Below are positions 19,925 to 36,146 of a DNA stretch of 64,000 nucleotides, one piece after another. The first letter of the stretch is position 1. Each line of letters begins with the position of its first letter. The position numbers and the translations under genes are program-made. A model generated the notes under the pieces. It saw only the letters and a program-made list of their open reading frames with translations, had not been told where the DNA came from and ran no database searches. The DNA is from Mycobacteriales bacterium. Lineage in GTDB: Bacteria > Actinomycetota > Actinomycetes > Mycobacteriales > SCTD01. Location: positions 466,565-530,564 of the forward strand of contig JAUJOY010000001.1 in the NCBI GenBank assembly GCA_030447385.1, given 5' to 3'.

Positions 19925-20515
19925 TCAGGCGCGGGCGATGAGCCGGAAGTAGATGGCCATCCGCACCGACGGGCCGAGGTTCAGCGTCCCGCTGTGCCCG
20001 AGGCCGGGGTGCATGACCAGCACGTCACCCGCCGCGAGCGGAACCGGAGTGCTCTGCGCCGGCTGCCCGAAGTGCGAGCGCGGCCAGATCGCGATCGACC
20101 CGTCGTGCGGCCCGGCGTCGCTCAGCGACACCCCCACGATGCCCCGGTAGTCCCGACCGGCGGCCCACGGCGGGACCTGGTCGACGTGGGGCTGCAGGTC
20201 CCAGTGCTCCTCCTCATCGGGGAAGCGCAGCAGCAGCTGCGGCTCGGCCCACTCGTCTCCCTCCTGCCAGCCCAGCAGCTCGGCGGCGAACGGCGGCAGG
20301 ACGTCCCAGACCTGCGGCTCCCACCGCAGGTGCGGGAAGAAGCCGACCCGCTGCCACTCGTCGATCTGCTCCGGCGTCAGGCCGTGCTGGCGGATGGCGA
20401 GGTTCAGCCGGCGCACGGCGGCGGTGACGGCACTTCCCGGGACCGCGTCGCGCAGCACGACGTAGCCGTCCTCGCGCAGGCTCTGCCGCGGGGAGGTGAG
20501 CGCGATCTCGGTCAC
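19925..20515 (-). CDS. Phytanoyl-CoA dioxygenase (PhyH) family Fe(II)/2-oxoglutarate oxygenase
   Basis: A 196-aa protein from a GTG that overlaps the preceding glycosyltransferase stop by 4 bp. The metal site is visible: HVD at residues 110-112 and a distal His in MHPGLGHSGTLN, followed by Arg in SVRMAIYFR for 2-oxoglutarate. It opens with REDGYVVLRDAV, typical of PhyH. As the last gene of the nine-gene cluster it is a candidate tailoring enzyme that hydroxylates or oxidises the glycan or its aglycone. The substrate cannot be read from sequence. Confidence 0.85.
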   Translation of the reverse strand: MTEIALTSPRQSLREDGYVVLRDAVPGSAVTAAVRRLNLAIRQHGLTPEQIDEWQRVGFFPHLRWEPQVWDVLPPFAAELLGWQEGDEWAEPQLLLRFPDEEEHWDLQPHVDQVPPWAAGRDYRGIVGVSLSDAGPHDGSIAIWPRSHFGQPAQSTPVPLAAGDVLVMHPGLGHSGTLNLGPSVRMAIYFRLIARA

Positions 20516-21603
20516 CCGGTCCTCCTCGAGCCCGTCGGGGTCTGTCCCGTCAGTGCGGCCACATGCTGCTCCAGCTCCTCGGCGCGGTGCTCGGCGGTGT
20601 GCTCGGCCAGCACCCGTGCCCGGGCCGCGGCTCCTATCGTGGCGCGCGTCTCCTCGTCCATCCTGGACAGGTGCCCGAGCACCTCCTCGGCGGAGCGCGC
20701 CACCAGGATCTCGGTCCCCGGCCGGAAGAACGCGTCGAGCCCCTCCCACCAGTCGGACACGACGGGGGTGCCGCAGGCCGCGGCCTCGAACAGGCGCACG
20801 CTGGGTGACCAGCCCGCGGCCACCATGTCGGCGCGGGTGACGTTCAGCGTCAGCCGCTGCGAGGAGTAGAAGGCGGCGTGCTCCGCGGGCGGCAGGTGGT
20901 CGATCCGCTCGACGTTGCCCGGCCACCCGATCCCGGCGGGGTACTGCGGCCCGGCGACGACGAACGAGCCGGACGGCGACCGGCGTGCCGGCTCCAGCAG
21001 CAGCTCGTCGAGCACCGGCTGGCGGTCGGCGCTGTAGGTCCCGAGATAGCCGAGGTCCCAGACCCTGCCGCTGTCGCCCGGCGAGTACGCGGCCGGGTCG
21101 ACCAGGCAGTAGAAGGCGCGGGCGCAGGGCGAGCCGAACTGCTGCTCGATGCGCCGCAGCGTGGGCCCGCCCGTGAACGACAGGTACAGCGCGTACCCGC
21201 CGACGAGCTCAGGGGACAGGTAGGCGCACTCGCCCCGCTCCAGCGCCCGAAGCGTCACCGGGGTGTCGATGTCGTAGAAGACCGTGACGCCGCGGGCGAC
21301 GTCCTGCACCCAGCGACCCACCTCGAGGCCCTCCGGGACGTACGAGCCGACGACGACGACGTCGGCCTCGGAAACGCCGCCCGTGTGCCGGTCCCACAGC
21401 TCCTCCAGCGAGCCGTACAGCTCGGTCGTGCCGTACGGCGGGGACGGCAGGTCGCGGTTGTCGGCGTACCAGGGCACGTCGCGCTCGAGGAACAGCACGT
21501 CGTGGCCGCGGGCGTCGAGCGCCTGCACCAGCCCGCGGAAGTTGGTCGCGTGCCCGTTGCCCCAGGAGGACGTGATCGACAGGCCGAGGAAGACGATTCT
21601 CAC
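20512..21603 (-). CDS. CgeB-like glycosyltransferase (copy 1)
   Basis: A 363-aa protein from GTG, coupled by 4-bp overlaps on both sides. The N-terminus VRIVFLGLSITSSWGNGHATN is a GT-B type opening. The C-terminal half carries LNVTRADMVAAGWSPSVRLFE, ACGTPVVSDWWEGLDAFF and the EILVA motif of the CgeB / glycosyl transferases group 1_2 family. It shares the LNVTR...GWSP block with the next gene, so the two are likely a tandem duplication. It probably transfers a sugar from an activated nucleotide donor in the cytoplasm. Acceptor unknown. Confidence 0.82.
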   Translation of the reverse strand: MRIVFLGLSITSSWGNGHATNFRGLVQALDARGHDVLFLERDVPWYADNRDLPSPPYGTTELYGSLEELWDRHTGGVSEADVVVVGSYVPEGLEVGRWVQDVARGVTVFYDIDTPVTLRALERGECAYLSPELVGGYALYLSFTGGPTLRRIEQQFGSPCARAFYCLVDPAAYSPGDSGRVWDLGYLGTYSADRQPVLDELLLEPARRSPSGSFVVAGPQYPAGIGWPGNVERIDHLPPAEHAAFYSSQRLTLNVTRADMVAAGWSPSVRLFEAAACGTPVVSDWWEGLDAFFRPGTEILVARSAEEVLGHLSRMDEETRATIGAAARARVLAEHTAEHRAEELEQHVAALTGQTPTGSRRTG

Positions 21604-22664
21604 GGCACCCGCTCGCGCAGGAGCGCGTCGACCTGCACCGCGCGGTGGGTGTAGGTGTGACCGGCCAGCACCCGCTCGAGAGCGGCGCTGCCGAGGGCCG
21701 CGGCGCGCTCGGGATCCAGCGAGTCCAGGTGCGCGGACACCTCGGCGCCGTCGGCCGCGACGAGCACCTCGCGGTCGGGCGTGAGGAAGTCCCCGATGCC
21801 GGCCCAGGCGTCGGTGATCTGGCACGCACCGGCGCCCGCGACCTCGAAGACGCGTGTTGCCGGCGACCAGCCGTTCGCGACCATGCTGTCGCGGGTGACG
21901 TTGAGGACGACGAGCGGGGTGCTGTTGAACGCGTTGTGGTCGGCGGTGCCGACGTGGCCGATCCGGCGCACGTTGGGCGGCATGGGCTTGTCCTCCCAAC
22001 CGTTCCCGCCGAGCAGGAAGGTCCGCTCGGCGGACAGGGACGCGGCCCGCAGGAAGAACTCCTCGATCCGCTCCTCCCTGTCCGGCAGCCGGTTGGCGAG
22101 AAGGGCGAGGTCGGCGGCGAACCGTGGGTCCGGGCTGCCGGGATGGTGCGTGGTCGGGTCGACGGCGTTGTAGACCACGACGCACTCCTTCGCCCCGAGG
22201 GCCGTGTAGCGGCGGACGACCGGGTCACCGCCGCCGTAGGTGAGGACCAGGTCGTAGGACGGCAGCAGCGCGCGGAACGAGTCGCCGTCGTCCGCCTCCA
22301 TCCGCGACAGCGTGGCCGGGGCGTCGACGTCCCAGAAGATGGTGTAGCCGCCGGCTCCGAGGACAGCCTCCTCGAGCACGTCGTCGAAGACGCCGACGCC
22401 GCTGGTCTTCACGACCACGTCGGCGCCCCGCGCGCGCTGGACGACGGCGCGTACCTGCTCGGCGTCCTGCGCCTCGTAGATGACGACCTCCGCCCACGGC
22501 GGGTCGTCGATGTCGCGGTGCAGCTGACGGTCGTAGGCGTTCGGCTCGTAGAACGTCACCGCGTGGCCGAGCTCGTGCAGCCCGCGGATGACACCGCGGT
22601 AGTAGGTGCACGAGCCGTTCCACCAGGAGGAGACCAGGCTGGAGCCGAAGAAGGAGATGTTCAT
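21600..22664 (-). CDS. CgeB-like glycosyltransferase (copy 2)
   Basis: A 354-aa protein starting MNISFFGSSLVSSWWNGSCT. It has the same layout as copy 1: an N-terminal Rossmann-like half with TYGGGDPVVRRYTALGA, then LNVTRDSMVANGWSPATRVFE, GACQITDAWAGIGDFL and the EVLVA donor-site motif. Its stop overlaps the GTG of copy 1 (4 bp) and its ATG overlaps the stop of copy 3. No signal peptide or membrane segment is seen. Substrates unknown. Confidence 0.82.
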   Translation of the reverse strand: MNISFFGSSLVSSWWNGSCTYYRGVIRGLHELGHAVTFYEPNAYDRQLHRDIDDPPWAEVVIYEAQDAEQVRAVVQRARGADVVVKTSGVGVFDDVLEEAVLGAGGYTIFWDVDAPATLSRMEADDGDSFRALLPSYDLVLTYGGGDPVVRRYTALGAKECVVVYNAVDPTTHHPGSPDPRFAADLALLANRLPDREERIEEFFLRAASLSAERTFLLGGNGWEDKPMPPNVRRIGHVGTADHNAFNSTPLVVLNVTRDSMVANGWSPATRVFEVAGAGACQITDAWAGIGDFLTPDREVLVAADGAEVSAHLDSLDPERAAALGSAALERVLAGHTYTHRAVQVDALLRERVP

Positions 22665-23767
22665 GCGGTGGTCCCCGTCTTCAGACCGAGCTCGCCGGCC
22701 ACCTCGAGCAGCTCGTTCACCCGGTGGGCGCAGGTGTGCCCGGCGGCGATGGCTGCGAGGCCGTGCTCGCGCAGTGACTGCGCGAGCGCGGGGTCGTGCA
22801 GCACGTCGGTCAGGTGCCTCTGCATGGCGGCGCCGTCCCTGGCGACCAGGTAGTTCACGCCGGGTGCGAACAGGCCCTCCACGTCGTCCCACGGCGCGCT
22901 GACCAGCGGGATCCCGCAGGCGAGCGCCTCGAACGGCCGGATGGTCGGGATGCCGGGAAGCGCTGTGACGTAGGCCTTTCGGGGCACGTGGACGGTGACG
23001 GCGTACGACCCGAACGTCGCCGGTACGCGGTGGTTGGCCACCCACCCGCCGTACCGGATGCCGGCAGCGGTGAGCGCCTTCTTCGCGCTGTCGGGGTAGC
23101 GCACCCCGTGGACCCGAGCGGTCAGGCCGAGCCGGGTGACCGGCTCCAGCAGGAACTCGTGCAGCTCGGCGGTGCGCTCGCCGTCGCCCCAGTTTCCGAT
23201 CCAGACCAGGTCGCCGCGGCGACCCAGCCCCTCCACCGGGTGGAAGTGGCGGGTGTCGGCGGCCTCGTGCCAGGTCCACGCCTGCCCGGTCCAGCCCCGC
23301 TTGAGGTAGAGGTCCCGGAGAACGCGGCCGAAGGCGAGGACGCCGTCGTAGTGCCGCAGGTCGAACCGGGCCATCTCCTCGGGCGCCGTGACCGCTCGGT
23401 GGTGGGTGTCGTGGAACAGCAGCCGGTAACCCCCGGCCGCTCGGTGGGCGCCCACGGCCGCCACCAGCGACGGCTCGTTCCACTCGTGCACGAGCACCAG
23501 GTCCGCGCCGTCGGTCATCGCCGGCACGTCCGGCTCGCGCGGGTCGTAGGACGTGCTGCGCAGGCTCGGGAAGACCCGGTAGACCTCGTCGATCACGTCG
23601 GCGCCCTGGTCCACGACGAGGGAAGCCCGACTCCACCCGTCGAGCGGCTCGAACACGCGGACCTCGTGCCCGCGGTCCAGCAGCTCGGCGACGACGCCGC
23701 GCAGGAAGTGCGCGTTGCCGTGGTTCCAGTCCGACATCAGCGAGTGGCAGAAGACGACGATCCTCAT
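22661..23767 (-). CDS. CgeB-like glycosyltransferase (copy 3, more divergent)
   Basis: A 368-aa protein starting MRIVVFCHSLMSDWNHGNAH. It has the GT-B fold with VWIGNWGDGERTAELHEFL near the middle and a C-terminal donor site IRPFEALACGIPLVSAPWDD followed by NYLVARDG. It lacks the LNVTR block of copies 1 and 2 but keeps the overall plan, and TVHVPRKAYVTALPGIPTIRPFE occupies the same place. It is coupled on both sides by 4-bp overlaps. It may add a different sugar of the same chain. Confidence 0.82.
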   Translation of the reverse strand: MRIVVFCHSLMSDWNHGNAHFLRGVVAELLDRGHEVRVFEPLDGWSRASLVVDQGADVIDEVYRVFPSLRSTSYDPREPDVPAMTDGADLVLVHEWNEPSLVAAVGAHRAAGGYRLLFHDTHHRAVTAPEEMARFDLRHYDGVLAFGRVLRDLYLKRGWTGQAWTWHEAADTRHFHPVEGLGRRGDLVWIGNWGDGERTAELHEFLLEPVTRLGLTARVHGVRYPDSAKKALTAAGIRYGGWVANHRVPATFGSYAVTVHVPRKAYVTALPGIPTIRPFEALACGIPLVSAPWDDVEGLFAPGVNYLVARDGAAMQRHLTDVLHDPALAQSLREHGLAAIAAGHTCAHRVNELLEVAGELGLKTGTTA

Positions 23768-24783
23768 CGGGAGCTCGCCCTGCCGGCGGGCATCCGCGCG
23801 TAGATCTCGAGGTAGCCGGCGGCCGTGCGCTCGGGCAGGTAGCGCTGCGCGCGTACCCGCGCCCGCTGCCCGGCCGCCGGGTCGGAGAGCGCGGCGTCCA
23901 CGGCTGCCTGCAGGGACGGGACGTCGTGCGCGTACGCCGCGGCGTCGCCCCACAGCTCGCGCAGGCTCGGCAGGTCGCCGAGCACGAGCGCGCAGCCGGC
24001 CTGCGCCGCCTCGAGGATCGCCAGGCCGAACGGCTCGTACAGCGCGGGGGCGGCGTAGACCGCGGCGCGGCCCATCTCCCGCGCGAGCTCCGGCGGCGCC
24101 AGCGGTCCGAGGCTGCGGACCCCAGGGAGCTCTCCCTCTCCGGCGACCACCACGGGTGCGGCGAGCTCGGCCAGCACGCGCAGGTTCTTGGCCTCGTCCC
24201 ACACCCGCCCGGCCGCGAGGACGAACGGCTCCTTGCGCACCGCGGGCAGCCGCGGGGGGCGGCGGCAGTTCGGGAGAACGGTGGCGCCCTCAAAGGCGTA
24301 CTCGCGGGACAGGTCGGCGGCGACGGCGGCTGTCGGCGCCACCACCCGGTCCGCCGCTGTGAGACCCGCGGTGAGGCGACGGCGGTACTCGTCCCAGTCC
24401 GGCGGCGCCGCCGCACCGTGCACGGCGCGCCACCACGACAGCACGTCGGAGTGGGCCACGACCACGGTCGGTGCCTGCCACGGCAGGGCAGCGTGCGCGT
24501 ACCCGCCCAGCTGCACGACGTCGGGCTGCAGCCGGGACTCCAGCTCCAGCAGCCACTGCCCGGCGGCGTCGACCCCGTCCCACGGGTCCGGCATCCACTC
24601 GAGCGGGAAGCCCGACTCCGAGAGGCTCGCGAAGACGCCGCAGTCCGCGTGCTGCGGCGGCGACAGCGGCCGGCCCATCATCGCGAGATGCACCTCGACC
24701 CCGTGCGGCGCCAGCGCCGCGGCCAGCTCGACGGAGTAGGTCCAGACCCCGCCCACCGGGTCGGCGGTCAGCAGCAGCCTCAT
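23764..24783 (-). CDS. Glycosyltransferase family 4 protein
   Basis: A 339-aa GT-B enzyme starting MRLLLTADPVGGVWTYSVEL, the usual GT4 acceptor-domain opening. The donor-site motif YEPFGLAILEAAQAGCALVLGD carries the E-x7-E pair. The reading VLAAGRVWDEAKNLRVLAEL matches the GT4 inter-domain motif (GRxxxxKN). It is cytoplasmic with no membrane segment. It is placed before the three CgeB-like genes and coupled to them, so it may act first on the acceptor. Confidence 0.86.
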   Translation of the reverse strand: MRLLLTADPVGGVWTYSVELAAALAPHGVEVHLAMMGRPLSPPQHADCGVFASLSESGFPLEWMPDPWDGVDAAGQWLLELESRLQPDVVQLGGYAHAALPWQAPTVVVAHSDVLSWWRAVHGAAAPPDWDEYRRRLTAGLTAADRVVAPTAAVAADLSREYAFEGATVLPNCRRPPRLPAVRKEPFVLAAGRVWDEAKNLRVLAELAAPVVVAGEGELPGVRSLGPLAPPELAREMGRAAVYAAPALYEPFGLAILEAAQAGCALVLGDLPSLRELWGDAAAYAHDVPSLQAAVDAALSDPAAGQRARVRAQRYLPERTAAGYLEIYARMPAGRASSR

Positions 24784-25763
24784 CGCCGGTAGATCCTGTC
24801 GAGCACCCGCGCGAGGTCGACGAGCTCCTGCGCCTGCGGGTCGAAGCGCTTGCCGCCGACGAGCTGGCGGGTCCACTCGACCGCGGCCCGGCCTCCCCAT
24901 GCGTCCGGCGGCTCCACCAGCGTCGTCCGGCCCGTCCCGGAGTGCAGGTCCGCGCGGAAGTCGTAGAACGACCCGTTCACGTTCGAGAGCGAGACCGCCC
25001 CGCGGGTGCCGTAGAAGGTGGCCCCGATGACGGCCTCCTGCCCGGCCGGGAGGTTCCAGGAGCAGGCGAGCGACAGGGCGCCGCCGCTCGCCAGGTCGAT
25101 CCGGGCGAGGGCGTGGTCCTCGACGACCCCGGCGCGTCCGTCCACCGGCCTTCCGCCGGCGAAGAGTCGGGAGGTCACCTGGCCCACCTCCGGGCCGTCG
25201 AGCAGCCACATCGCGAGGTCGACCAGGTGGATGCCGAGGTCGATGACGCAGCCGCCACCGGAGAGCACCGGGTCGCGGAACCACTCCTTGTCCGGGCCGT
25301 AGGCGTTGTGGAAGACCAGGTCCGCCGCGTAGACCTCGCCGATCTCGCCGCTCGCGATCACGTCGCGCAGCGCGCGGGTCGCAGCCAGGTGGCGGTAGGA
25401 CAGGTCGACACCGAGCAGGCGGTCGGCCTCGCGGGCGGCCTCCACGACGGCGCTGCACTCGGCCTCGGTGCGTCCGAGCGGCTTCTGGCAGAACACCGCC
25501 TTGCCGCTGCGCAGGGCCTGGAAGGCCTGCGTCGCGTGCAGGCCGCTGGGGGTGGCGATCACGACCCCGTCGACGTCGCCGACGAGGACCATCTCGGGGG
25601 TGGCCGTCTGCGCGCCGACCGCTTCGGCCGCCTCTTCGGCGGTGTAACGGCAGGTGTCGGCGACGAGGGAGACCTCGGCCAGCCCGGACGCGGCGATCGC
25701 CTTCATGCGGTCCAGGCCGATCCAGCCGACGCCGACGAACCCCAGCCTCGTCGGGGCGCTCAT
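24780..25763 (-). CDS. Gfo/Idh/MocA-family NAD(P)-dependent oxidoreductase
   Basis: A 327-aa protein starting MSAPTRLGFVGVGWIGLDRM. The Rossmann motif GVGWIG, the CQKPLGRT motif (canonical EKP with Gln for Glu) and the catalytic GGGCVIDLGIHLVDLAMW segment are visible. Family members oxidise or reduce sugar hydroxyls, often on nucleotide-sugars or free sugars. Coupling to the dehydrogenase gene upstream and the GT4 gene downstream suggests it prepares or edits the cluster sugar. Confidence 0.87.
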   Translation of the reverse strand: MSAPTRLGFVGVGWIGLDRMKAIAASGLAEVSLVADTCRYTAEEAAEAVGAQTATPEMVLVGDVDGVVIATPSGLHATQAFQALRSGKAVFCQKPLGRTEAECSAVVEAAREADRLLGVDLSYRHLAATRALRDVIASGEIGEVYAADLVFHNAYGPDKEWFRDPVLSGGGCVIDLGIHLVDLAMWLLDGPEVGQVTSRLFAGGRPVDGRAGVVEDHALARIDLASGGALSLACSWNLPAGQEAVIGATFYGTRGAVSLSNVNGSFYDFRADLHSGTGRTTLVEPPDAWGGRAAVEWTRQLVGGKRFDPQAQELVDLARVLDRIYRR

Positions 25764-26722
25764 CGCGGGCCCCCGGTCGTCAGCACCAGGGCCTTGACGA
25801 AGCCGTCGGGGCGCTCGTCCGCTGCCGCCATGGCTTCCCCGAGCCGGTCCAGCGGGTAGAGGTGGGTGTAGAGCGGCCGGGGGTCGAGGAGCCCGGAGCA
25901 GACCGCCTCGACGGCGTCGAGGATCCCGCGCATCGCGACCAGGGGGTCGCGCTCGTGGGCGTTCACCACGTCGATGCCCCGCCAGTTCCACAGCTGCACG
26001 TTGACCGACCGGAGGCCGTCCTGGTGGAACCCGGCGATGACCAGGCGTCCGCCGAACCCGGTCAGCTCACCCGCGAGGTCCAGCGGCTCGGCGGCCCCCG
26101 TCACCTCGACGACGCGCTCGCAGAGCTTCCCGCCGGTGAGCTCGCGGACCTCGTCGATCGCCCGCTCGTGGTCGTCCATCAGCACCGTCTCCTCCGCCCC
26201 CATGGAGCGGGCCACCTCCAGGGCGGCGGGCTTGCGGGCGAGGGCGATCACGCGGACGCCGGCCGATGCGGCCAGCGCGACCACGAGGGCGCCGAGGAAG
26301 CCGACCCCCACCACCGCCACGGTCTGCCCCGGGGCGAACGCGCTGCGCCGCGCGACGTTGAACGCGCAGCCCAGCGCCTCGCCCGGGAAGGGCTGGCCGT
26401 CCAGCTCCGGCGGCAGCGGGACCACGCGGTCCGCCGGCACGACGATCGAGTCGCGGAAGGCGTCGTCGGCGAGGACCGCGACGCGCTGCCCGACGCGCAG
26501 GTCGCCGCGGCCCGCCTCCTCGACCACCCCCCAGGCCTCATGCCCTGGACGACCGGGTGGCAGCGGGTAGTCGAACCACGGCCGGCCCTGCCAGACCGGC
26601 AGGTTGGAGCCGCAGACCCCGCAGCCCTCGACGGCTATGCGCACGTCGTCGCCCTGCAGCGGCGCAGGCCGGCTCCCGACCAGCTCGACCCGGCCGGGGC
26701 CGGTCAGGACTGCTGAACGCAC
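25760..26722 (-). CDS. Medium-chain zinc-type dehydrogenase
   Basis: A 320-aa protein from the GTG encoding VRSAVLTGPGRVEL. The catalytic zinc site is suggested by EGCGVCGSNLPVWQG and GRPGHEAWGVV; the cofactor motif is VAVVGVGFLGALVV. The four-Cys structural zinc lobe is absent, and the chain is shorter than the usual 345 or so. The enzyme probably oxidises a secondary alcohol, for example a sugar or inositol. It lies 8 bp downstream of an epimerase gene and overlaps the Gfo/Idh/MocA gene by 4 bp, so the pair may perform a coupled oxidation and reduction. Confidence 0.85.
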   Translation of the reverse strand: MRSAVLTGPGRVELVGSRPAPLQGDDVRIAVEGCGVCGSNLPVWQGRPWFDYPLPPGRPGHEAWGVVEEAGRGDLRVGQRVAVLADDAFRDSIVVPADRVVPLPPELDGQPFPGEALGCAFNVARRSAFAPGQTVAVVGVGFLGALVVALAASAGVRVIALARKPAALEVARSMGAEETVLMDDHERAIDEVRELTGGKLCERVVEVTGAAEPLDLAGELTGFGGRLVIAGFHQDGLRSVNVQLWNWRGIDVVNAHERDPLVAMRGILDAVEAVCSGLLDPRPLYTHLYPLDRLGEAMAAADERPDGFVKALVLTTGGPR

Positions 26723-26730
26723 AGCCCCTC

Positions 26731-27765
26731 TCAGCTCGCCCGCGCGCGCAGCAGCCGGCTCGACCCGAGCCACTCGTGCAGCAGCCGTACGCCCTGTTCG
26801 GGCGCGGTCTTCGCCGCCCACCCGGTGGCGTCGGAGAACCGCCGCGTGTCGGACACGTAGTAGCGCTGGTCGCCCACCCGCCAGTCACCGTGCTGCACCT
26901 CGGGGGCGGAACCCAGCTCGCCGATCAGCTCCAGCAGCTCCAGCAGGCTGACCGTGCTGTCCGGTCCGCCGCCCATGTTGAACGCCTGCCCGGTCAGGGC
27001 ATCCACGTGCTCCATGGCTGCCTGCATCGCGTCGAGCAGGTCCTCGACGTAGAGGATGTCGCGCACCTGGCGTCCGTCGCCGTAGAGCGTGACCGGTTCG
27101 CCGGCCAGAGCCTGCTTGAGGAAGTGGGCCACCCAGCCCTGGTCCTCGTTGCCGCACTGGTGCGGGCCGTAGATGCAGCTCATGCGGAACACGACCGCCG
27201 GCAGGGCGTAGGTGTCGGCGTAGTCGAGGACGTACTGGTCGGCCGCCCCCTTCGAGCAGCCGTACGGGCTGGTGAACTGCAGCGGCAGGTCCTCACCCAG
27301 GCCGTACCGCTCGACGCCGGGATCGGTCGGCGCGTAGCGGCCGTCCCGTCGCGCGACCTCGATGCCGGCGCACTTGCCGTAGACCTTGTTGGTCGACGTG
27401 AACAGCAGCGGCGGCGGCTCGTCGATCCGCCGGAGCTCCTCCAGCAGGGTGAGCGTCCCTACGGCGTTGACGCCGAAGTCGTGCAGGGGGGAGGTCACCG
27501 ATGTCGTGACCGCGACCTGGGCGGCGAAGTGGAACACCTCGTCCACACGGTGCAGCGCCCGCCGCACCAGGGCAGCATCACGCACGTCCCCCACCTCGAC
27601 CTGCAGCCGCTCGCCGTGGGACTGGCGCAGCCACGTGAGGTTGTCCGAAACGCCCGCTCGGGACAGGTCGTCCAGCACGACGACGCGTTGCCCCTGCTGC
27701 AGTAGGCGGTCCGCCAGGTTGGTGCCCACGAATCCGGCCCCACCGGTGATGAGGCTGCTCTTCAT
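26731..27765 (-). CDS. NAD-dependent epimerase/dehydratase (CDP-paratose/tyvelose epimerase-like)
   Basis: A 344-aa extended SDR starting MKSSLITGGAGFVGTNLADR. It has the GxxGxxG motif, FHFAAQVAV, the STNKVYG strand with a Ser/Thr pair, and the catalytic YGCSK (YxxxK). SCIYGPHQCGNEDQGWVAHF and YGDGRQVRDILYV are closest in my memory to RfbE-like CDP-tyvelose 2-epimerases. It acts on a nucleotide-sugar. Its ATG overlaps the stop of the upstream epimerase gene. Confidence 0.87.
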   Translation of the reverse strand: MKSSLITGGAGFVGTNLADRLLQQGQRVVVLDDLSRAGVSDNLTWLRQSHGERLQVEVGDVRDAALVRRALHRVDEVFHFAAQVAVTTSVTSPLHDFGVNAVGTLTLLEELRRIDEPPPLLFTSTNKVYGKCAGIEVARRDGRYAPTDPGVERYGLGEDLPLQFTSPYGCSKGAADQYVLDYADTYALPAVVFRMSCIYGPHQCGNEDQGWVAHFLKQALAGEPVTLYGDGRQVRDILYVEDLLDAMQAAMEHVDALTGQAFNMGGGPDSTVSLLELLELIGELGSAPEVQHGDWRVGDQRYYVSDTRRFSDATGWAAKTAPEQGVRLLHEWLGSSRLLRARAS

Positions 27766-28877
27766 ACGGTCAGACCCCGGCGGGTGAGCTCGGCGGTCGC
27801 GGCGTCCACGTCGTCGACGGCCACCTGACCCTCGAGCCAGGCCGCCAGCTCGGCCATCCCCTCCTCCAGCGGCACCTCGGGCCGGTAGTCGAGCACCTCC
27901 TGCGCGAGGGACACATCGGCGAAGCAGTGCCGGATGTCGCCGACCCGGAACTTGCCGGTGACCTCAGGGGCGAGATGCTCCTGGCCGAGCACCGCGGCGA
28001 GCCGGGCGGCGACCTCGTTGACGTCGATGCTCCGGCCGCTGCCGACGTTGACGACGTGACCGGCTGCTCCATCCGCGGCCAGGGCGAGCGCGGTCGCTCT
28101 GGCGACGTCGTGCACGCTGACGAAGTCACGCCGCTGCCTGCCGTCCTCGAACACCAGCGGCGGACGGCCGTTCAGCAGGCGGGACGCGAAGATGGCGAGC
28201 ACCCCGGTGTAGGGGTTCGACAGGGACTGGTACGGGCCGTACGCGTTGAAGAAGCGCAGCGCGACCGTCGGCACCTTGTAGGCCTCGCCGAACATCAGGC
28301 AGAGCCGCTCCTGGTCGTACTTCCCGAGCGCGTAGACGCTGGACAGCGACGGCAGCTTGGTCTCGGGAGTGGCTACCGGCGTCAGCTGCTCCCCGGTGGG
28401 CCCGGTGGGCTCCCAGCGGCCGGCCTCGAGGTCCTCGCGCCGGCGGGCCGCCGTCGGCGTGGGCCGGCCCGTCCCGTCGAGGTAGAGCCCCTCGCCGTAC
28501 ACGCTCATGCTGGAGGCCACCACGAGCCGCTCCACGGGGTGGTCCAGCAGCGCCTCCAGCAGCACTGCCGTCCCGACGCCGTTGACGGAGGTGTACTCGC
28601 TGATCTCGTACATGCTCTGGCCCACACCCACGCGGGCCGCCAGGTGCACGACCCGGTCCACGCCCACGAGCGCCTTGCTGACGGTCTCGGGGTCGCGCAC
28701 GTCCCCCACGACGAGCTCGGCGTCGCCGGCCAGGTAGTCGGGGCGGCTGCCCTCGGGGTGCACCTGCGGATGGAGGCTGTCGAGGACCCGGACCCGGTCG
28801 CCCGAATCGAGCAGCTGCCGGGTGAGGTGGGCGCCGATGAAGCCGGCACCCCCCGTGATGAGGATCGTCCGGGTCAT
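27762..28877 (-). CDS. NAD-dependent nucleotide-sugar epimerase (first gene of glycan cluster)
   Basis: A 371-aa extended SDR starting MTRTILITGGAGFIGAHLTR. It has VVHLAARVGVGQSMYE, ASSMSVYGEG, the catalytic YALGKYDQE (YxxxK) and RFFNAYGPYQSLSNPYTGV. An insertion of about 40 residues lies before the YxxxK helix. It resembles the dTDP-sugar/UDP-sugar 4-epimerase group. An alternative in-frame GTG at 28892 exists; the ATG is preferred because GGAAGGGGAGG precedes it. It is the first gene after the promoter at 28947-28977 and leads the nine-gene operon. Confidence 0.87.
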   Translation of the reverse strand: MTRTILITGGAGFIGAHLTRQLLDSGDRVRVLDSLHPQVHPEGSRPDYLAGDAELVVGDVRDPETVSKALVGVDRVVHLAARVGVGQSMYEISEYTSVNGVGTAVLLEALLDHPVERLVVASSMSVYGEGLYLDGTGRPTPTAARRREDLEAGRWEPTGPTGEQLTPVATPETKLPSLSSVYALGKYDQERLCLMFGEAYKVPTVALRFFNAYGPYQSLSNPYTGVLAIFASRLLNGRPPLVFEDGRQRRDFVSVHDVARATALALAADGAAGHVVNVGSGRSIDVNEVAARLAAVLGQEHLAPEVTGKFRVGDIRHCFADVSLAQEVLDYRPEVPLEEGMAELAAWLEGQVAVDDVDAATAELTRRGLTV

Positions 28878-28946: not shown

Positions 28947-28977
28947 ACGCTACCCATCGACATGCGGTTCATGTCAA
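28947..28977 (-). promoter_or_regulatory. Promoter of the nine-gene glycan cluster with an overlapping palindrome
   Basis: On the minus strand a perfect -35 TTGACA (28977-28972) and a TAGCGT -10 (28952-28947) are 19 bp apart. The sequence GACATG-N5-CATGTC (28959-28975) is a perfect palindrome lying over the -35 and the spacer, where a repressor would block polymerase. No other promoter-like gap exists inside the cluster. Confidence 0.55.
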
Positions 28978-29886: not shown

Positions 29887-29920
29887 GGGAAGGAACGGCC
29901 TCAGGGAAGGAACGGCCTCA
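29887..29920. repeat. 17-bp tandem duplication at the end of the queA remnant
   Basis: GGGAAGGAACGGCCTCA occurs twice head-to-tail (29887-29903 and 29904-29920). The second copy contains the stop codon of queA. A third degenerate start (GGGCAGGAAG) follows. It looks like replication slippage in the 3' end of the gene. Confidence 0.7.
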
Positions 29921-30968
29921 GGGCAGGAAGACCGACGAGTCGCCGAACTCGTGCCACAGGTAGCCCTGCTCGACGGCTGCGCCGTAGGCAGCCGCGACCA
30001 GGTCGTGGCCCGCCACCGCCTGCAGCAGGAGCAGGTGGCTGGCTTGCGGCGCATGCAGCCCGCTCACGAGGCCGGTGACCACCCGGGCCGGACGGTCCGG
30101 CCCCAGCACCAGGTCGGTCCATCCGGACGCGGCGGCCACTGTCCCATCGGGGGCGCCGGCCGACTCCAGAGCCCGGGTCACCGTCGTCCCTACCGCGACC
30201 ACCCGCCGGCCGGCGGCGCGGGTGCTGTTGACGAGGCGCGCCGTCGCCGCGGGGACGCAGAACCGCTCGGGCAGCGGGGGCTCGTGCTCGTCCGGGCTCG
30301 AGACGCTCGCGTGGAGGAGGACGGGTGCGAGCGCGACGCTGCGCGTGACCAGCTCCACCACCAGCTCCGGCGTGAAAGGCCTGTTCACTGGCCATCTCGG
30401 CGCTGCCGGGTTCTCTGGCGAACACGGTCTGGTAGTCGCTCAGGGGGTAGCCGCCGGGCACGTAGCCGTAGCGGATCGGCGTGCCGTGCGCGGCCAGGTA
30501 CTGCACACCGTCGGTCGGTCGGGACAGGTGGGCGCGCCAGAGCCGCGACGAGGTCGGCGTCGCGTTCGGGTACGCCGTCGTGAGCGTCAGGAGCAGTCCG
30601 CCGGGCAGCTCGATCCGCCGCCCGGGCCGCCCGCTGCGCAGGTCCGGCCCCGCGCCGCCGGGGAGCCGCAGCTCGACGACCCACTCCTCGTGCTCGAGCA
30701 GGGCGGCGACGTGCACCAGCAGGGGAGCGCCGTCAGTGGCGCCCCGCACAGCGGCGGCAAGGGTTGCGGAGGTGTTCACCACGACGAGGTCGCCGGGGGC
30801 CAGCAGGTCGGGCAGATCGCGGAAGTGGCGGTGCTCCAGTCCCTCCGGTCGCGCCACGAGCAGCCGCACCCCGTCGCGGGCCGTGCCCCGGCGCTCCGGG
30901 GGCTCGGCGGCCTCGCTGCCCTCCGGCAGGACGAACCGGACGGCCGGTGCGGATAGGGCGGCGGTCAT
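29918..30968 (-). pseudogene. queA: S-adenosylmethionine:tRNA ribosyltransferase-isomerase, frameshifted
   Basis: The N-terminal part starts MTAALSAPAVRFVLPEG and runs through FRDLPDLLAPGDLVVVNTSATL, IRYGYVPGGYPLSDYQTVF and REPGSAEMA in one frame. The rest (NRPFTPELVVELVTRSV, AVGTTVTRALESAG, TDLVLGPDRPARVVTGLVSG, GHDLVAAAYGAAVEQGYLWHEFGDSSVFLP) continues in another frame from about 30388. Joined, the two parts give a nearly full-length QueA, which makes the epoxyqueuosine side chain of tRNA queuosine. A one-base change near 30388-30395 breaks it. The context is not a homopolymer. It may be a recent pseudogene or an assembly indel. Its start overlaps the SDR stop. Confidence 0.8.
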
Positions 30969-32299: not shown

Positions 32300-33790
32300 T
32301 CAGGGGCTCGGGGCGGGCGTCGGAGGAGCCGGAGTGCCCGCCGTCGGGCTCGGTGCCGGCTCCGCCCGCGCTACCACCTCTCGCGCGATCCGGGCGTCGG
32401 TGAGGCCGAGGCCGCCGAGCGTGATGTCGTCGTAGGCCTGCAGCAGCCGCGTCTCGCGGTCGAGGTAGAGCACGGACAGGCTGATGTCCGTGGGCTTCTC
32501 GCCTTCCAGCGCCCGAAGACCCGCGCCGCCGGTGGAGCCCTGGACGAACAGCACCGTGTCGCCGGTCGTGGTCACCCGGCGCTGGTGGCTGTGGCCGGCG
32601 AGGACCAGCGGCACCCTGCCGACCAGCGGCGAAGTCGCCGCCGGGTCGTGGGTCAGCACGATGTCGGGCTTCACCAGCGCCGCGTCGTACGCCTCCAGCA
32701 GCTGTCTCCCCACGAGCTGCAGGACCTCCGGCGGGGCGTCGTCGTCCCGGGTCGTCTTGTCCGGCGTGAACCGCGGGTCGCCCTGCCCGAGCAGGCGCAC
32801 CCCGCCGGCCTCCACGACCTGAGCGCCGTCGACCACCACCGCGTTCGGCTGCCGGGCGATCGCCGACTGGGTCAGCAGGCTGTCGTGGTTGCCGCGGACG
32901 TACGCGTAAGGCACCCCCAACCCGGCGATGGCCTCGACGTACCGGGTCTCGGCGGCGCTGCCGAAGTCGGTGATGTCCCCCGTGTCCACGACGACGTCGA
33001 TGTCGAACTGGCGCACGACCGAGCCGATCACCTCGAACGCCGCCGGGTTGAGGTGCAGGTCGCTGACGTGCAGGACGCGCAGGCTGTCGTCGGACGCGGG
33101 CGACACCGGGAGCCGGCTCGTCACGGCGTACAGCTCGCTGACGTTCGACACCAGCCGCCCGAGCTGCAGGCGGTAGGCGTCGAAGCGCTCGACGATGTCG
33201 CGGACGTCGCCGACGGCGGTGGGCGCGGAGGCCAGCAGGCCGGTGAACCTCGGCTCCGCCAGCGCCCGCTCGTTCACGGTCGCGTACGTGATCGCCGCCG
33301 CGACCGCCAGCGCCGCCGCTCCGGACCCGGCCGCCGCGACCGTCGCCCGCCAGCGGCGGAAGACCAGCAGCCCGAGCAGAGCGGCGCCCAGCAGGGTCAC
33401 CAGCGCGGTACGCACCAGCAGCGACCTCAGGCCGTCCCGCAGGTCCGCGTTGACCTCCGCGCCGAGCCCGCGCAGCTGCTCCGGGTCGGCGACGATCGCC
33501 CGCGCCGCATCGCCGCGCAGCTGGTTGATCCGCACACCGAGGCTGACCGGTCCGGCGTGGGTGTCCAGCCGCAGCTCACCCAGTGGCGGGACCTCCACGG
33601 TCGTGCTGCCCGACAGCGTCGGCCGGAGCTCCATGTCGGCCTGGAACGGCCCCACGCCGCGGGTCACCTGCCCGGCGAGCAGCATGCCGAGGACCGCGCC
33701 GAGCACGCCCACGGCGATGAGCTCGGTCCAGACCAGCAACCGTGGGCCCCGTCCCCGGGAGGGTGCAGCGGCGCTCTCCGCCGAGGTCAC
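32300..33790 (-). CDS. Membrane-anchored calcineurin-like metallophosphoesterase
   Basis: A 496-aa protein from a GTG that overlaps the upstream gene by 4 bp. It has an N-terminal transmembrane helix (VWTELIAVGVLGAVLGMLLAG), an extracytoplasmic loop of about 110 aa, and two further helices (LVTLLGAALLGLLVF and ALAVAAAITYATV). The phosphoesterase domain follows: HVSDLHLN, VDTGDITDFG, VRGNHDS, HDPAA and LAGHSHQRR supply the two-metal site. The C-terminus is Pro-rich. It could dephosphorylate a lipid-linked or nucleotide-sugar intermediate at the membrane, since it is coupled to glycosylation genes. Confidence 0.86.
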   Translation of the reverse strand: MTSAESAAAPSRGRGPRLLVWTELIAVGVLGAVLGMLLAGQVTRGVGPFQADMELRPTLSGSTTVEVPPLGELRLDTHAGPVSLGVRINQLRGDAARAIVADPEQLRGLGAEVNADLRDGLRSLLVRTALVTLLGAALLGLLVFRRWRATVAAAGSGAAALAVAAAITYATVNERALAEPRFTGLLASAPTAVGDVRDIVERFDAYRLQLGRLVSNVSELYAVTSRLPVSPASDDSLRVLHVSDLHLNPAAFEVIGSVVRQFDIDVVVDTGDITDFGSAAETRYVEAIAGLGVPYAYVRGNHDSLLTQSAIARQPNAVVVDGAQVVEAGGVRLLGQGDPRFTPDKTTRDDDAPPEVLQLVGRQLLEAYDAALVKPDIVLTHDPAATSPLVGRVPLVLAGHSHQRRVTTTGDTVLFVQGSTGGAGLRALEGEKPTDISLSVLYLDRETRLLQAYDDITLGGLGLTDARIAREVVARAEPAPSPTAGTPAPPTPAPSP

Positions 33791-34416
33791 GACCGGGCCT
33801 GTGCCAGCTGGGCTGCCAGTTCGGCGGCGAAGCGGCTGCCGGCGGCCAGGTCCGCCACCGCCAGGGCGTCGGCGATGGTGTCGACGTCGCGCAGCACCGG
33901 CAGCAGGTGCACCGGGAGCCCGTGCCCGACGAGCCGGGCGAGCTGCAAGGCGCCGGTGTCGTCCTGCGAGGTCGGGATGTCGCGCAGCAGCGCGCCGTCC
34001 GGGTTCTGCATCCCGAGCGCCCACCACCCGCCGTCGGCGGCCATCCCCAGGACGGCGGGATGGACGCGGAGCACCTCGACCACCTCGCGCAGCAGGGCCG
34101 CCGTGAGCTGCGGGGTGTCCATGCCGATCAGCAGCGTCGGCATGCGCTCCGCGTCGTCGAAGGCCGCCGCGAGGCGCTCGGACATGGGACCGCCGCGTTG
34201 TGGCTGCACGACGAAACCGGCTGCGCGGTAGTCCCCCTCGAGCACGAGCACCCGGCGGGCGACGTCCAGCCGGCGGACCGCGGCCAGGGTGTCCTCGAGT
34301 GCCGCCGCGGCCACCCGCGCGGCGCCCTCCGGGGTCAGCGGGGGACACAGCCGCGTCTTCACCCGCCCCGCCACCGGCTCCTTCGCCAGCACCAGGACCT
34401 GCACCGCGGCGGTCAC
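33787..34416 (-). CDS. DUF2064 / TIGR04282-type glycosyltransferase A family protein
   Basis: A 209-aa protein from GTG (VTAAVQVLVLAKEPVAGRVKTRL). The motif AKEPVAGRVKTRLCPPLTPEGAA is the hallmark of this CofC/nucleotidyltransferase-like family; IGMDTPQLTAALL and ADGGWWALGM complete the active site. Members are annotated as transferases near arsenosugar or sugar-lipid genes, but most are uncharacterised. It overlaps both neighbours by 4 bp in a GT2 - DUF2064 - phosphoesterase unit. Confidence 0.85.
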   Translation of the reverse strand: MTAAVQVLVLAKEPVAGRVKTRLCPPLTPEGAARVAAAALEDTLAAVRRLDVARRVLVLEGDYRAAGFVVQPQRGGPMSERLAAAFDDAERMPTLLIGMDTPQLTAALLREVVEVLRVHPAVLGMAADGGWWALGMQNPDGALLRDIPTSQDDTGALQLARLVGHGLPVHLLPVLRDVDTIADALAVADLAAGSRFAAELAAQLAQARS

Positions 34417-35072
34417 GGGATCTCCCGCAGCACCCGCGACATGTCGCGCACGGCCTTGAGCGTGCCGCCCACCGTCCCGGTCACCTTCGACCGCCCGGTG
34501 CGCGGGAGGTAGTCGACGTCGACCTCCACGACCCGCCAGCCCGCAGCCACGGCACGGGTGACCATCTCCAGCGGGTAGCCGAAGCGGCGGTCCTGCAGCT
34601 CCAGCGCGAGCAGCGCGTTCCGCCGGCACGCCCGCATCGGCCCCAGGTCGTGCAGGCGCAGGCCGGTCCGCCGCCGCAGCTGCCGCGCCACCTCGGCGTT
34701 GCCGAGCCGGGCGTGCAGCGGCCACACCCCCCGCTCTGCCGTACGGCGACGGCCGAGCACCAGCTCCGCCCGCCCCTCCAGCAGCGGGGCGACGACCCGC
34801 GGCAGCTGCTGCGGGTCGAACGAGCCGTCGGCGTCGAGGAAGCAGACGATCCCGTCGTCGCTGTCCGCAGCCGCGAGCCCGGCGGAGCAGGCGGCGCCGA
34901 AGCCGCGCGGGCTCGCCTGCACGACCACCGCGCCGTGCGACGCGGCCACCGCAGCGGAGCCGTCGGTGGAGTCGTTGTCGGCGACGATCGCCCGGTAGCC
35001 GGCGGGCATGCGGCCGAGCACCCAGGGCAGCGCCTGCGCCTCGTCGAGGCAGGGCAGGACGACGTCGGGCAC
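34413..35072 (-). CDS. Glycosyltransferase family 2 (dolichol-phosphate-mannose-synthase-like)
   Basis: A 219-aa GT-A enzyme from GTG. It shows VVLPCLDEAQALPWVL, the nucleotide-binding VADNDSTDGSA and the metal motif CFLDADGSFDP (DxD). The C-terminal RRTGLRLHDLGPMRACRR and YPLEMVTRAVAAGWRVVEV match the family that loads a sugar onto a polyprenyl phosphate. No membrane helix is seen. It lies 30 bp downstream of an epimerase that may make its donor. Confidence 0.88.
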   Translation of the reverse strand: MPDVVLPCLDEAQALPWVLGRMPAGYRAIVADNDSTDGSAAVAASHGAVVVQASPRGFGAACSAGLAAADSDDGIVCFLDADGSFDPQQLPRVVAPLLEGRAELVLGRRRTAERGVWPLHARLGNAEVARQLRRRTGLRLHDLGPMRACRRNALLALELQDRRFGYPLEMVTRAVAAGWRVVEVDVDYLPRTGRSKVTGTVGGTLKAVRDMSRVLREIP

Positions 35073-35102
35073 CCGGCGAGCCTGCCAGACGACCGCCGCG
35101 AG

Positions 35103-36146
35103 TCAGGTGCGCAGCGGCGCCGTGGCGAACTCGCGCACCCCCTCCTCGAACGAGATCCGGGCGGTGAAGCCGAGCCCGGCCCGGGCCCGCTCCGCGGAGG
35201 CCACCACGTGGCGCACGTCCCCCAGCCGGTACTGCCCCGTCACGACCGGCGGCGGGCCGTCACACGCGCGCGCCAGCTCGCGCGCGAGGTCGCCGACCGT
35301 GTGCGGGACGCCGCTCGCCACGTTGTAGGGGTCCAGCGCGCCGGCGGTGGACTCAGCCTGCAGGGCGAGCAGGTTGGCGGCGGCCACGTCGCGTACGTGC
35401 ACGAAGTCCCGTCGCTGGCCGCCGTCCTCGAACACCCGCGGCGCCTCCCCCCGCGCAAGCGCGCTGCGGAAGAGGCTGGCCACGCCCGCGTACGGCGTGT
35501 CCTTGGGCATGTGCGGGCCGTAGACGTTGTGGTAGCGCAGCGCGACGGCGGTGCCGCCGGTGGCGCGCGCCCAGCTGGCGGCGAGGTGCTCCTGGGCGGT
35601 CTTGGTCGCGGCGTAGACGTTGCGGGGGTCCAGCTCGGCGTCCTCGGGAACGGTGCCCGGCTCCAGGGGAGAGCCGCACTCCGGGCACGGCGGCTCGAAC
35701 GAGCCCGCGTCGAGCGCTTCCCTCGCCCGTGGTGCGGGCCGCACGACGCCGTGCCCCGCGCACAGGTAGCGGCCCTCCCCGTAGACCACCATCGAGCTCG
35801 CGAGCACCAGCCGGCCGATCCCGGCGCGGTCCAGAGCCGCCAGCAGCACCGCGGTCCCGAGGTCGTTGTGACCGACGTAGGACGGCAGGTCGGACAGGTC
35901 GACGCCGAGCCCGACCATCGCGGCCTGGTGGCACACGGCGTCGATGCCGTCGAGGGCCTCCTCCGGAAGCGCGCGCACATCGGCGTGCCAGCGCTCTGCG
36001 CGCGTGTCCACGGTCGCCGGCCACCCGTCGCGGTGCACCTCGGGGAGCAGCGCGTCGAGCACGCGCACCTCGTGCCCGGCGTCGAGCAGCGCCGTGGTGA
36101 TGGTGCTGCCGATGAAGCCGGCGCCACCGGTCACGAGGATGTGCAT
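35103..36146 (-). CDS. NAD-dependent nucleotide-sugar epimerase with a CPxCG insert
   Basis: A 347-aa extended SDR starting MHILVTGGAGFIGSTITTAL. It has AVCHQAAMVGLGVDL, LASSMVVYGEGRYL, the catalytic YAATKTAQE (YxxxK) and RYHNVYGPHMP. Before the YxxxK helix an insertion of about 40 aa contains CPECGSPL, a possible half zinc knuckle. It parallels the insertion in the epimerase at 27762-28877, and the proteins also share the ASSMxVYGEG and DVRHVVA/DIRHCFA motifs, so they are probably paralogs. It is the first gene of a four-gene sugar operon. Confidence 0.88.
   Translation of the reverse strand: MHILVTGGAGFIGSTITTALLDAGHEVRVLDALLPEVHRDGWPATVDTRAERWHADVRALPEEALDGIDAVCHQAAMVGLGVDLSDLPSYVGHNDLGTAVLLAALDRAGIGRLVLASSMVVYGEGRYLCAGHGVVRPAPRAREALDAGSFEPPCPECGSPLEPGTVPEDAELDPRNVYAATKTAQEHLAASWARATGGTAVALRYHNVYGPHMPKDTPYAGVASLFRSALARGEAPRVFEDGGQRRDFVHVRDVAAANLLALQAESTAGALDPYNVASGVPHTVGDLARELARACDGPPPVVTGQYRLGDVRHVVASAERARAGLGFTARISFEEGVREFATAPLRT

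Follow-up and report, generated by a model that had tools for sequence, protein, structure and literature searches.

A gene cluster conserved in at least eight bacterial phyla, possibly for a small cytoplasmic oligosaccharide built on inositol

What is made by a compact set of sugar genes that includes four glycosyltransferases and no exporter? The question is raised by nine genes, termed here g1–g9, in a stretch of 64,000 nucleotides (hereafter the window) from a Mycobacteriales bacterium (GenBank assembly GCA_030447385.1, contig JAUJOY010000001.1, positions 466,565 to 530,564). They encode two short-chain dehydrogenases/reductases (SDRs; g1, g2), a medium-chain dehydrogenase (MDR; g3), a Gfo/Idh/MocA dehydrogenase (g4), a GT4-type glycosyltransferase (g5), three glycosyltransferases with the PF13524 domain (g6–g8) and a PhyH-type oxygenase (g9). 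The first eight constitute a conserved pathway that is present in at least eight phyla. The reading preferred here, held tentatively and given somewhat less than an even chance, is that a small oligosaccharide, soluble, non-reducing and decorated, is put together in the cytoplasm; its acceptor would most likely be inositol, and it perhaps acts as a stress protectant.

The conservation rests on a scan of 84,980 species, which returned 38 loci in Actinomycetota, Pseudomonadota, Planctomycetota, Gemmatimonadota, Myxococcota, Verrucomicrobiota, Binatota and Acidobacteriota. Loci were picked by g8 or g7 alone, yet the run g5-g6-g7-g8 (GT4 followed by the three other glycosyltransferases) is contiguous in 38 of the 40 loci that hold g7, so the gene order is far beyond chance. 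Ahead of this run g1 and g2 usually stand, with g3-g4 or a gene for a radical S-adenosylmethionine (SAM) protein often in between, and g6 orthologs retain 52–78% identity over their full length across phyla. A first-pass annotation of the window, made from its letters alone, had proposed to search other genomes for the same gene order, and had named scattered, unrelated orthologs as a finding that would speak against it; the order was found, and the phyla share both the order and the content of the cluster.

Carriers are thinly spread. Within the phylum, g8 occurs at 64–68% identity in three of 395 other genomes, and above the threshold used there were no weaker matches except the g7 paralogs of those four genomes. 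A g7 ortholog is present in 14 of 336 alphaproteobacterial genomes of a drawn sample, the centre genome aside, and carriers also include Xanthomonas, Opitutus and Azospirillum. In a plasmid collection 148 records contain g7, mainly from Sinorhizobium and Rhizobium, the others from Roseomonas, Paracoccus, Azospirillum, Sphingobium, Bradyrhizobium and Agrobacterium; in two model root-nodule bacteria the cluster lies on pSymB of Sinorhizobium meliloti 1021 near 245 kb and on p42b of Rhizobium etli CFN42 at 55.6–64.9 kb. In a tree of g6, g7 and g8 the six actinobacterial copies, that of the window included, form one clade (99% support in the approximate likelihood ratio test, SH-aLRT), so a recent transfer into the window is unsupported. 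Since the order is conserved across phyla and the actinobacterial copies form a single clade, the pathway is sporadic but old and coherent, and no chance assembly.

In the window all nine genes are intact and co-directional on the minus strand, from 28877 to 19925. Seven of the eight junctions are 4-bp stop/start overlaps, ATGA at g1/g2, g3/g4, g4/g5, g5/g6 and g6/g7 and GTGA at g7/g8 and g8/g9, g2/g3 being the sole non-overlapping junction with a gap of 8 bp. The Pfam domain calls (two PF01370 SDRs, ADH_N with ADH_zinc_N, Gfo/Idh/MocA, GT4, three PF13524 and a weak PhyH) agree with the coupled set of enzyme classes that had first been described, and likewise identify no flippase, polymerase, ligase, nonribosomal peptide synthetase, polyketide synthase or exporter among the nine genes.

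The enzymes that open the run are probably concerned with sugar supply. The top solved relatives of g1 are epimerases (E 5e-41), and among solved SDRs g2 is closest to the CDP-tyvelose 2-epimerases 9rl0 and 1orr (266 and 251 bits; next best 143). These enzymes (RfbE) are the nearest characterised kin of g2 by sequence, and their motif TNKVYG is kept, whereas g2 has no adjoining CDP-sugar dehydratase set; g2 probably epimerises C2 of a nucleoside diphosphate (NDP)-sugar. In g3 the catalytic zinc ligands C37, H61, E62 and E115 are invariant in 16 aligned orthologs, and the structural-zinc lobe, reported missing in the first-pass annotation, is missing in 16 of 16. The alignment of g4 has invariant K94, D175 and H179, that is the catalytic Lys and Asp/His pattern of Gfo/Idh/MocA enzymes.

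The initial proposal gave the redox pair a step of its own, and this is supported. Some loci carry instead a B12-radical-SAM protein above the cut-off of TIGR04295 (711 vs 400). Genome-wide, 21 carriers have g3 only, seven TIGR04295 only, three neither and one, Belnapia moabensis, both (nominal p = 2.6e-4); the radical SAM status of two Belnapia genomes and the g3 status of many genomes were read from the locus. This near mutual exclusivity across genomes suggests that the MDR/Gfo pair and TIGR04295 would carry out equivalent chemistry, most simply an epimerisation at one carbon.

Which molecule, then, receives the sugars? Relatives contain genes that are absent from the window, namely inositol-3-phosphate synthase (INO1) with a histidine phosphatase, UDP-xylose synthase (UXS), a TIGR04290 methyltransferase and a glycosidase. 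INO1 and the phosphatase are found next to the cluster in Roseomonas, Paracoccus, Sphingobium, Sinorhizobium, Ensifer, Azospirillum, Bradyrhizobium and Belnapia. Many alphaproteobacterial copies are arranged divergently, as in Sphingobium, where phosphatase, methyltransferase, glycosidase, INO1, g3 and g4 face g1, g2, g5, g6, g7, g8 and a UDP-glucuronate decarboxylase; in Roseomonas a single run holds INO1, the phosphatase, g7 and g8. INO1 is rare among alphaproteobacteria, being found in 32 of 337 (9.5%), and g7 is found in 4.5%; with the centre genome excluded, six of the 14 g7 carriers have INO1 against 1.3 expected (nominal Fisher p = 7e-4), and five of these six have it within 10 kb of g7. 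A phosphatase next to INO1 speaks for inositol in free form and not for a lipid. The genome of the window has INO1 118 kb from the window start as well as a UXS-like gene, therefore the actinobacterium needs no local copies.

The predicted structure of g8 agrees with a soluble acceptor. The AlphaFold model of g8 (predicted local distance difference test, pLDDT, 94.7) has a GT-B fold, and its closest folds belong to the retaining GT4 clan (sucrose-phosphate synthase, MshA, BshA, TreT), with enzymes using small soluble acceptors among them, a likeness that would not in itself establish the acceptor. A profile search of PDB with the g8 alignment (36 rows) gave designed TIM barrels only, which are probably spurious.

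Mycothiol head-group assembly (INO1, MshA, MshB) resembles this scheme in its INO1-derived inositol, in a GT4-clan GT-B enzyme with a soluble acceptor and in a PIG-L deacetylase, which occurs in a sister module of relatives. It differs in that here there are four glycosyltransferases, dedicated sugar epimerases, a redox pair, free inositol formed through a phosphatase and no cysteine ligase; none of g5–g8 matches an MshA equivalog in NCBIfam, and the fold alone is in common. The sister module is a separate observation: in several loci (L053-L061, L064-L066, L085) INO1, the histidine phosphatase, a g8 paralog (g8'), a nucleotidyltransferase, the TIGR04290 methyltransferase and a glycosidase stand together, often with the deacetylase and another GT4, and may make a related inositol glycoside.

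Several points weigh against inositol and against a protective product. INO1 is missing in eight of 40 genomes tested, so that an obligate role for it was rejected; isolates with the core genes and no INO1 are Caenispirillum, Xanthomonas sp. AmX2, two Chelativorans and Laterigemmans, which would need to import inositol or to use another acceptor. Alternatively, INO1 may be part of a module of INO1, phosphatase, g8', nucleotidyltransferase, methyltransferase and glycosidase that is in part independent of the cluster and merely co-located. Both p-values given above are too small, since loci and sampled genomes are interrelated. The top NCBIfam matches of g3 and g4, scyllo-inosose 3-dehydrogenase (IolM) and inositol 2-dehydrogenase (IolG), speak for inositol, and the pairing of a Gfo/Idh enzyme with an MDR dehydrogenase recalls Thermotoga-type inositol oxidation; however, the scores lie far under the equivalog cut-offs (80.9 bits vs 450 and 95.7 bits vs 355) and the setting with glycosyltransferases is biosynthetic. 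The closest solved relative of g4 is 6jw6, the aminoglycoside dehydrogenase KanD2. A stress island was considered and rejected: several plasmid copies have stress genes on their flanks, yet similar genes (treZ, glgX, Hsp20) occur in control stretches of two of four plasmids, and stress-gene-rich plasmids lend little weight to a protective role. With the INO1 linkage set against the carriers devoid of INO1, inositol is moderately supported as the best acceptor candidate and is not proven.

The first-pass annotation had the product finished by hydroxylation, and this does not hold as a defining trait. The g9 residues H110-x-D112, H174 and R185 (the HxD...H iron triad and distal Arg) are invariant in four copies, and these copies of the window lineage are the only ones; g9 is present in three of 150 genomes of the window's order, its own genome counted, all in one genus. 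The model, expected to show a double-stranded beta-helix, is of middling quality (pLDDT just 73.6), with 2-oxoglutarate oxygenases as its top fold matches throughout (PHYHD1, AviO1, EvdO1 and KanJ). Since g9 is absent from every non-actinobacterial locus and from the actinobacterial loci L020 and L021, it is a lineage-specific decoration and not part of the core. Where the window lineage has PhyH, most clusters have the methyltransferase, which scores above the cut-off of TIGR04290 (326 vs 300 bits); two near relatives (L024, L031) have both. Neither TIGR04290 nor TIGR04295 is found above cut-off in the window's genome, and the window lost or never had this methyltransferase.

The glycosidase domain of relatives carries a WNEPNN motif, and one distant and weak query did not find it in the genome of the window. 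As a further observation, a glycosidase-like TIM barrel is fused N-terminally to a g2-type SDR in several loci (L021, L037, L040, L047, L050, L051, L082, L083, L086), which is an unusual pairing with a CDP-tyvelose-2-epimerase-like enzyme. A protein of 582 aa that matches no Pfam family (L081:4377-6125; also L035, L046, L057, L077, L078, L084) is repeatedly encoded next to the cluster in Sinorhizobium, Roseomonas, Azospirillum and Kofleriaceae.

From the observed gene content, order, motifs, linkage and exclusivity we infer an acceptor, a reaction order, a product and a role as follows. g1 and g2 would supply unusual NDP-sugars, which g5 and g6–g8 would add stepwise to a small acceptor, most likely free inositol. 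g3 and g4 would oxidise and then re-reduce one hydroxyl on the ring of the cyclitol or of an attached sugar, with net epimerisation, and in other lineages TIGR04295 would replace them at this ring-inverting step. Tailoring would differ by lineage, with O-methylation by TIGR04290 in most and hydroxylation by g9 in that of the window. Alphaproteobacteria would form inositol locally through INO1 and the phosphatase, and xylose through UXS, while the actinobacterium would rely for both on genes in other parts of its genome. The product would stay inside the cell, perhaps as a stress protectant.

The last point separates the scheme from its best-surviving alternative, itself unlikely: a surface glycan (a side chain of lipopolysaccharide (LPS) or capsule, or a glycolipid head) that is assembled in the cytoplasm and leaves the cell through general export machinery with its genes at other sites. 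Several nucleotide-sugar enzymes with four glycosyltransferases are typical of such products, a polysaccharide pyruvyl transferase gene lies beside the cluster in S. meliloti, Ensifer and Paracoccus, and p42b of R. etli is known for LPS genes. Against this, no exporter of ABC or other type, no flippase (Wzx), polymerase (Wzy), initiating phosphosugar transferase, ligase or gene for a lipid carrier or anchor recurs in the annotated clusters; the core is unchanged across Gram-positive and Gram-negative phyla, and INO1 with a phosphatase would be odd for such a product. Because an export system is missing, the product is probably intracellular, and the initial idea of a cytoplasmic oligosaccharide on a small acceptor, made with no export machinery of its own, gains support.

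More doubtful is a specialised metabolite of the aminoglycoside or orthosomycin type, that is a decorated pseudo-oligosaccharide with signalling or antagonistic activity. The closest solved relative of g4, KanD2, fits it, as do the oligosaccharide-tailoring oxygenases AviO1, EvdO1 and KanJ among the g9 fold matches, the recurrence nearby of inositol synthase, PIG-L deacetylase and the B12-radical-SAM enzyme, and the patchy distribution. Yet aminotransferase, resistance and export genes do not recur, and the core order is kept across phyla of very different lifestyles, unlike in most antibiotic clusters.

That a protein is glycosylated, be it of the spore coat, a flagellin or an adhesin, as the label CgeB-like had implied, is highly improbable: PF13524 enzymes have in some cases been connected with the glycosylation of spores or flagellin, but the likeness of g6–g8 to Bacillus CgeB is the shared domain (120–152 bits) and no more, no target-protein gene recurs and no spore gene is seen among the neighbours in annotated relatives, the carriers include non-sporing bacteria of many phyla (Sinorhizobium, Xanthomonas, Opitutus and Azospirillum among all carriers), and INO1, UXS and the glycosidase point to a small molecule. 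Of the earlier interpretation as a whole, the cohesion of the cluster, the small cytoplasmic carrier and the redox step thus stand, while PhyH and CgeB/spore biology are not central.

That no pathway with this set had been described was also claimed at first, and none was found in the literature searched, a search that had most subscription journals outside its scope. In it no paper names TIGR04290 or TIGR04295 or links CgeB with inositol or PhyH, and S. meliloti and R. etli locus tags, guessed from coordinates and thus weak queries, led to none except on SMb20231, a putative sugar-binding protein of an ABC transporter (PMC12542648). The neighbourhood has been partly glimpsed before, as NCBI curators modelled the two accessory families (meth_Rta_06860 and B12_rSAM_oligo), which both score above cut-off beside g1–g8 orthologs, as hypothetical equivalogs with no function assigned.

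The features are collected in Table 1. A single promoter, as first claimed, is plausible for the whole cluster: TTGACA at 28977-28972, followed by a 19-nt spacer and TAGCGT, forms a candidate element, whereas a consensus promoter scan upstream of g1 gave no sigma-70 site. Downstream the cluster is convergent with a gene reading as pyruvate carboxylase, and upstream lie a metallo-beta-lactamase-fold gene and a QueA-like gene; their relevance is not obvious. The QueA-like gene (29918-30968, minus strand) is split over two frames, the N-terminal part of a 355-aa open reading frame (ORF) carrying on in a 156-aa ORF at 29918-30388, which suggests a frameshift or an assembly error. Apparently separate is a small sugar cluster at 33787-36146, minus strand, with a second g1-related SDR (35103-36146) holding a CPECG insert and an ORF (33787-34725), the C-terminal half of which resembles a DUF2064-type protein. 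A fourth strong PF13524 protein (87 bits) is encoded in the same genome (G000:C9:562509-562943), about 73 kb from the cluster.

Table 1. Cluster features, with positions counted from the first letter of the window
Feature	Position	Strand	Basis or remark
g1, SDR nucleotide-sugar epimerase, 371 aa	27762..28877	-	PF01370 168.7 bits; opens conserved run
g2, SDR, CDP-tyvelose 2-epimerase-like, 344 aa, motif TNKVYG	26731..27765	-	PF01370 and solved relatives
g3, medium-chain dehydrogenase (MDR), 320 aa	25760..26722	-	PF00107/PF08240
g4, Gfo/Idh/MocA dehydrogenase, 327 aa	24780..25763	-	PF01408/PF22725
g5, GT4-type glycosyltransferase, 339 aa	23764..24783	-	PF13439/PF13692; position conserved in 38 loci
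g6, PF13524 glycosyltransferase, 368 aa	22661..23767	-	119.6 bits
g7, PF13524 glycosyltransferase, 354 aa	21600..22664	-	129.5 bits; best cluster marker
g8, PF13524 glycosyltransferase, 363 aa	20512..21603	-	152 bits
g9, PhyH-type Fe/2-oxoglutarate oxygenase, 196 aa	19925..20515	-	PF05721 28.1 bits, cut-off 22 (weak)
Possible promoter, TTGACA-19 nt-TAGCGT	28947..28977	-	upstream of g1; read from sequence

What would such a pathway mean? The cluster is best placed as a variant of known oligosaccharide or cyclitol-glycoside biosynthesis. A bolder proposal, which we consider doubtful, is an undescribed class of glycosyl-cyclitols (inositol oligosaccharides), spread over many phyla and partly plasmid-borne, with a ring step by MDR and Gfo/Idh enzymes or by a B12-radical-SAM protein and an intracellular protectant as its product. 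As the core lies in the genetically tractable S. meliloti 1021 and R. etli CFN42 and on Azospirillum plasmids, the function of this cross-phylum pathway is directly testable. Should the product prove to be a glycosyl-inositol, it would represent a further class of bacterial small molecules, and the exchange of redox pair and radical SAM enzyme would be a natural experiment in which two chemistries serve one step.

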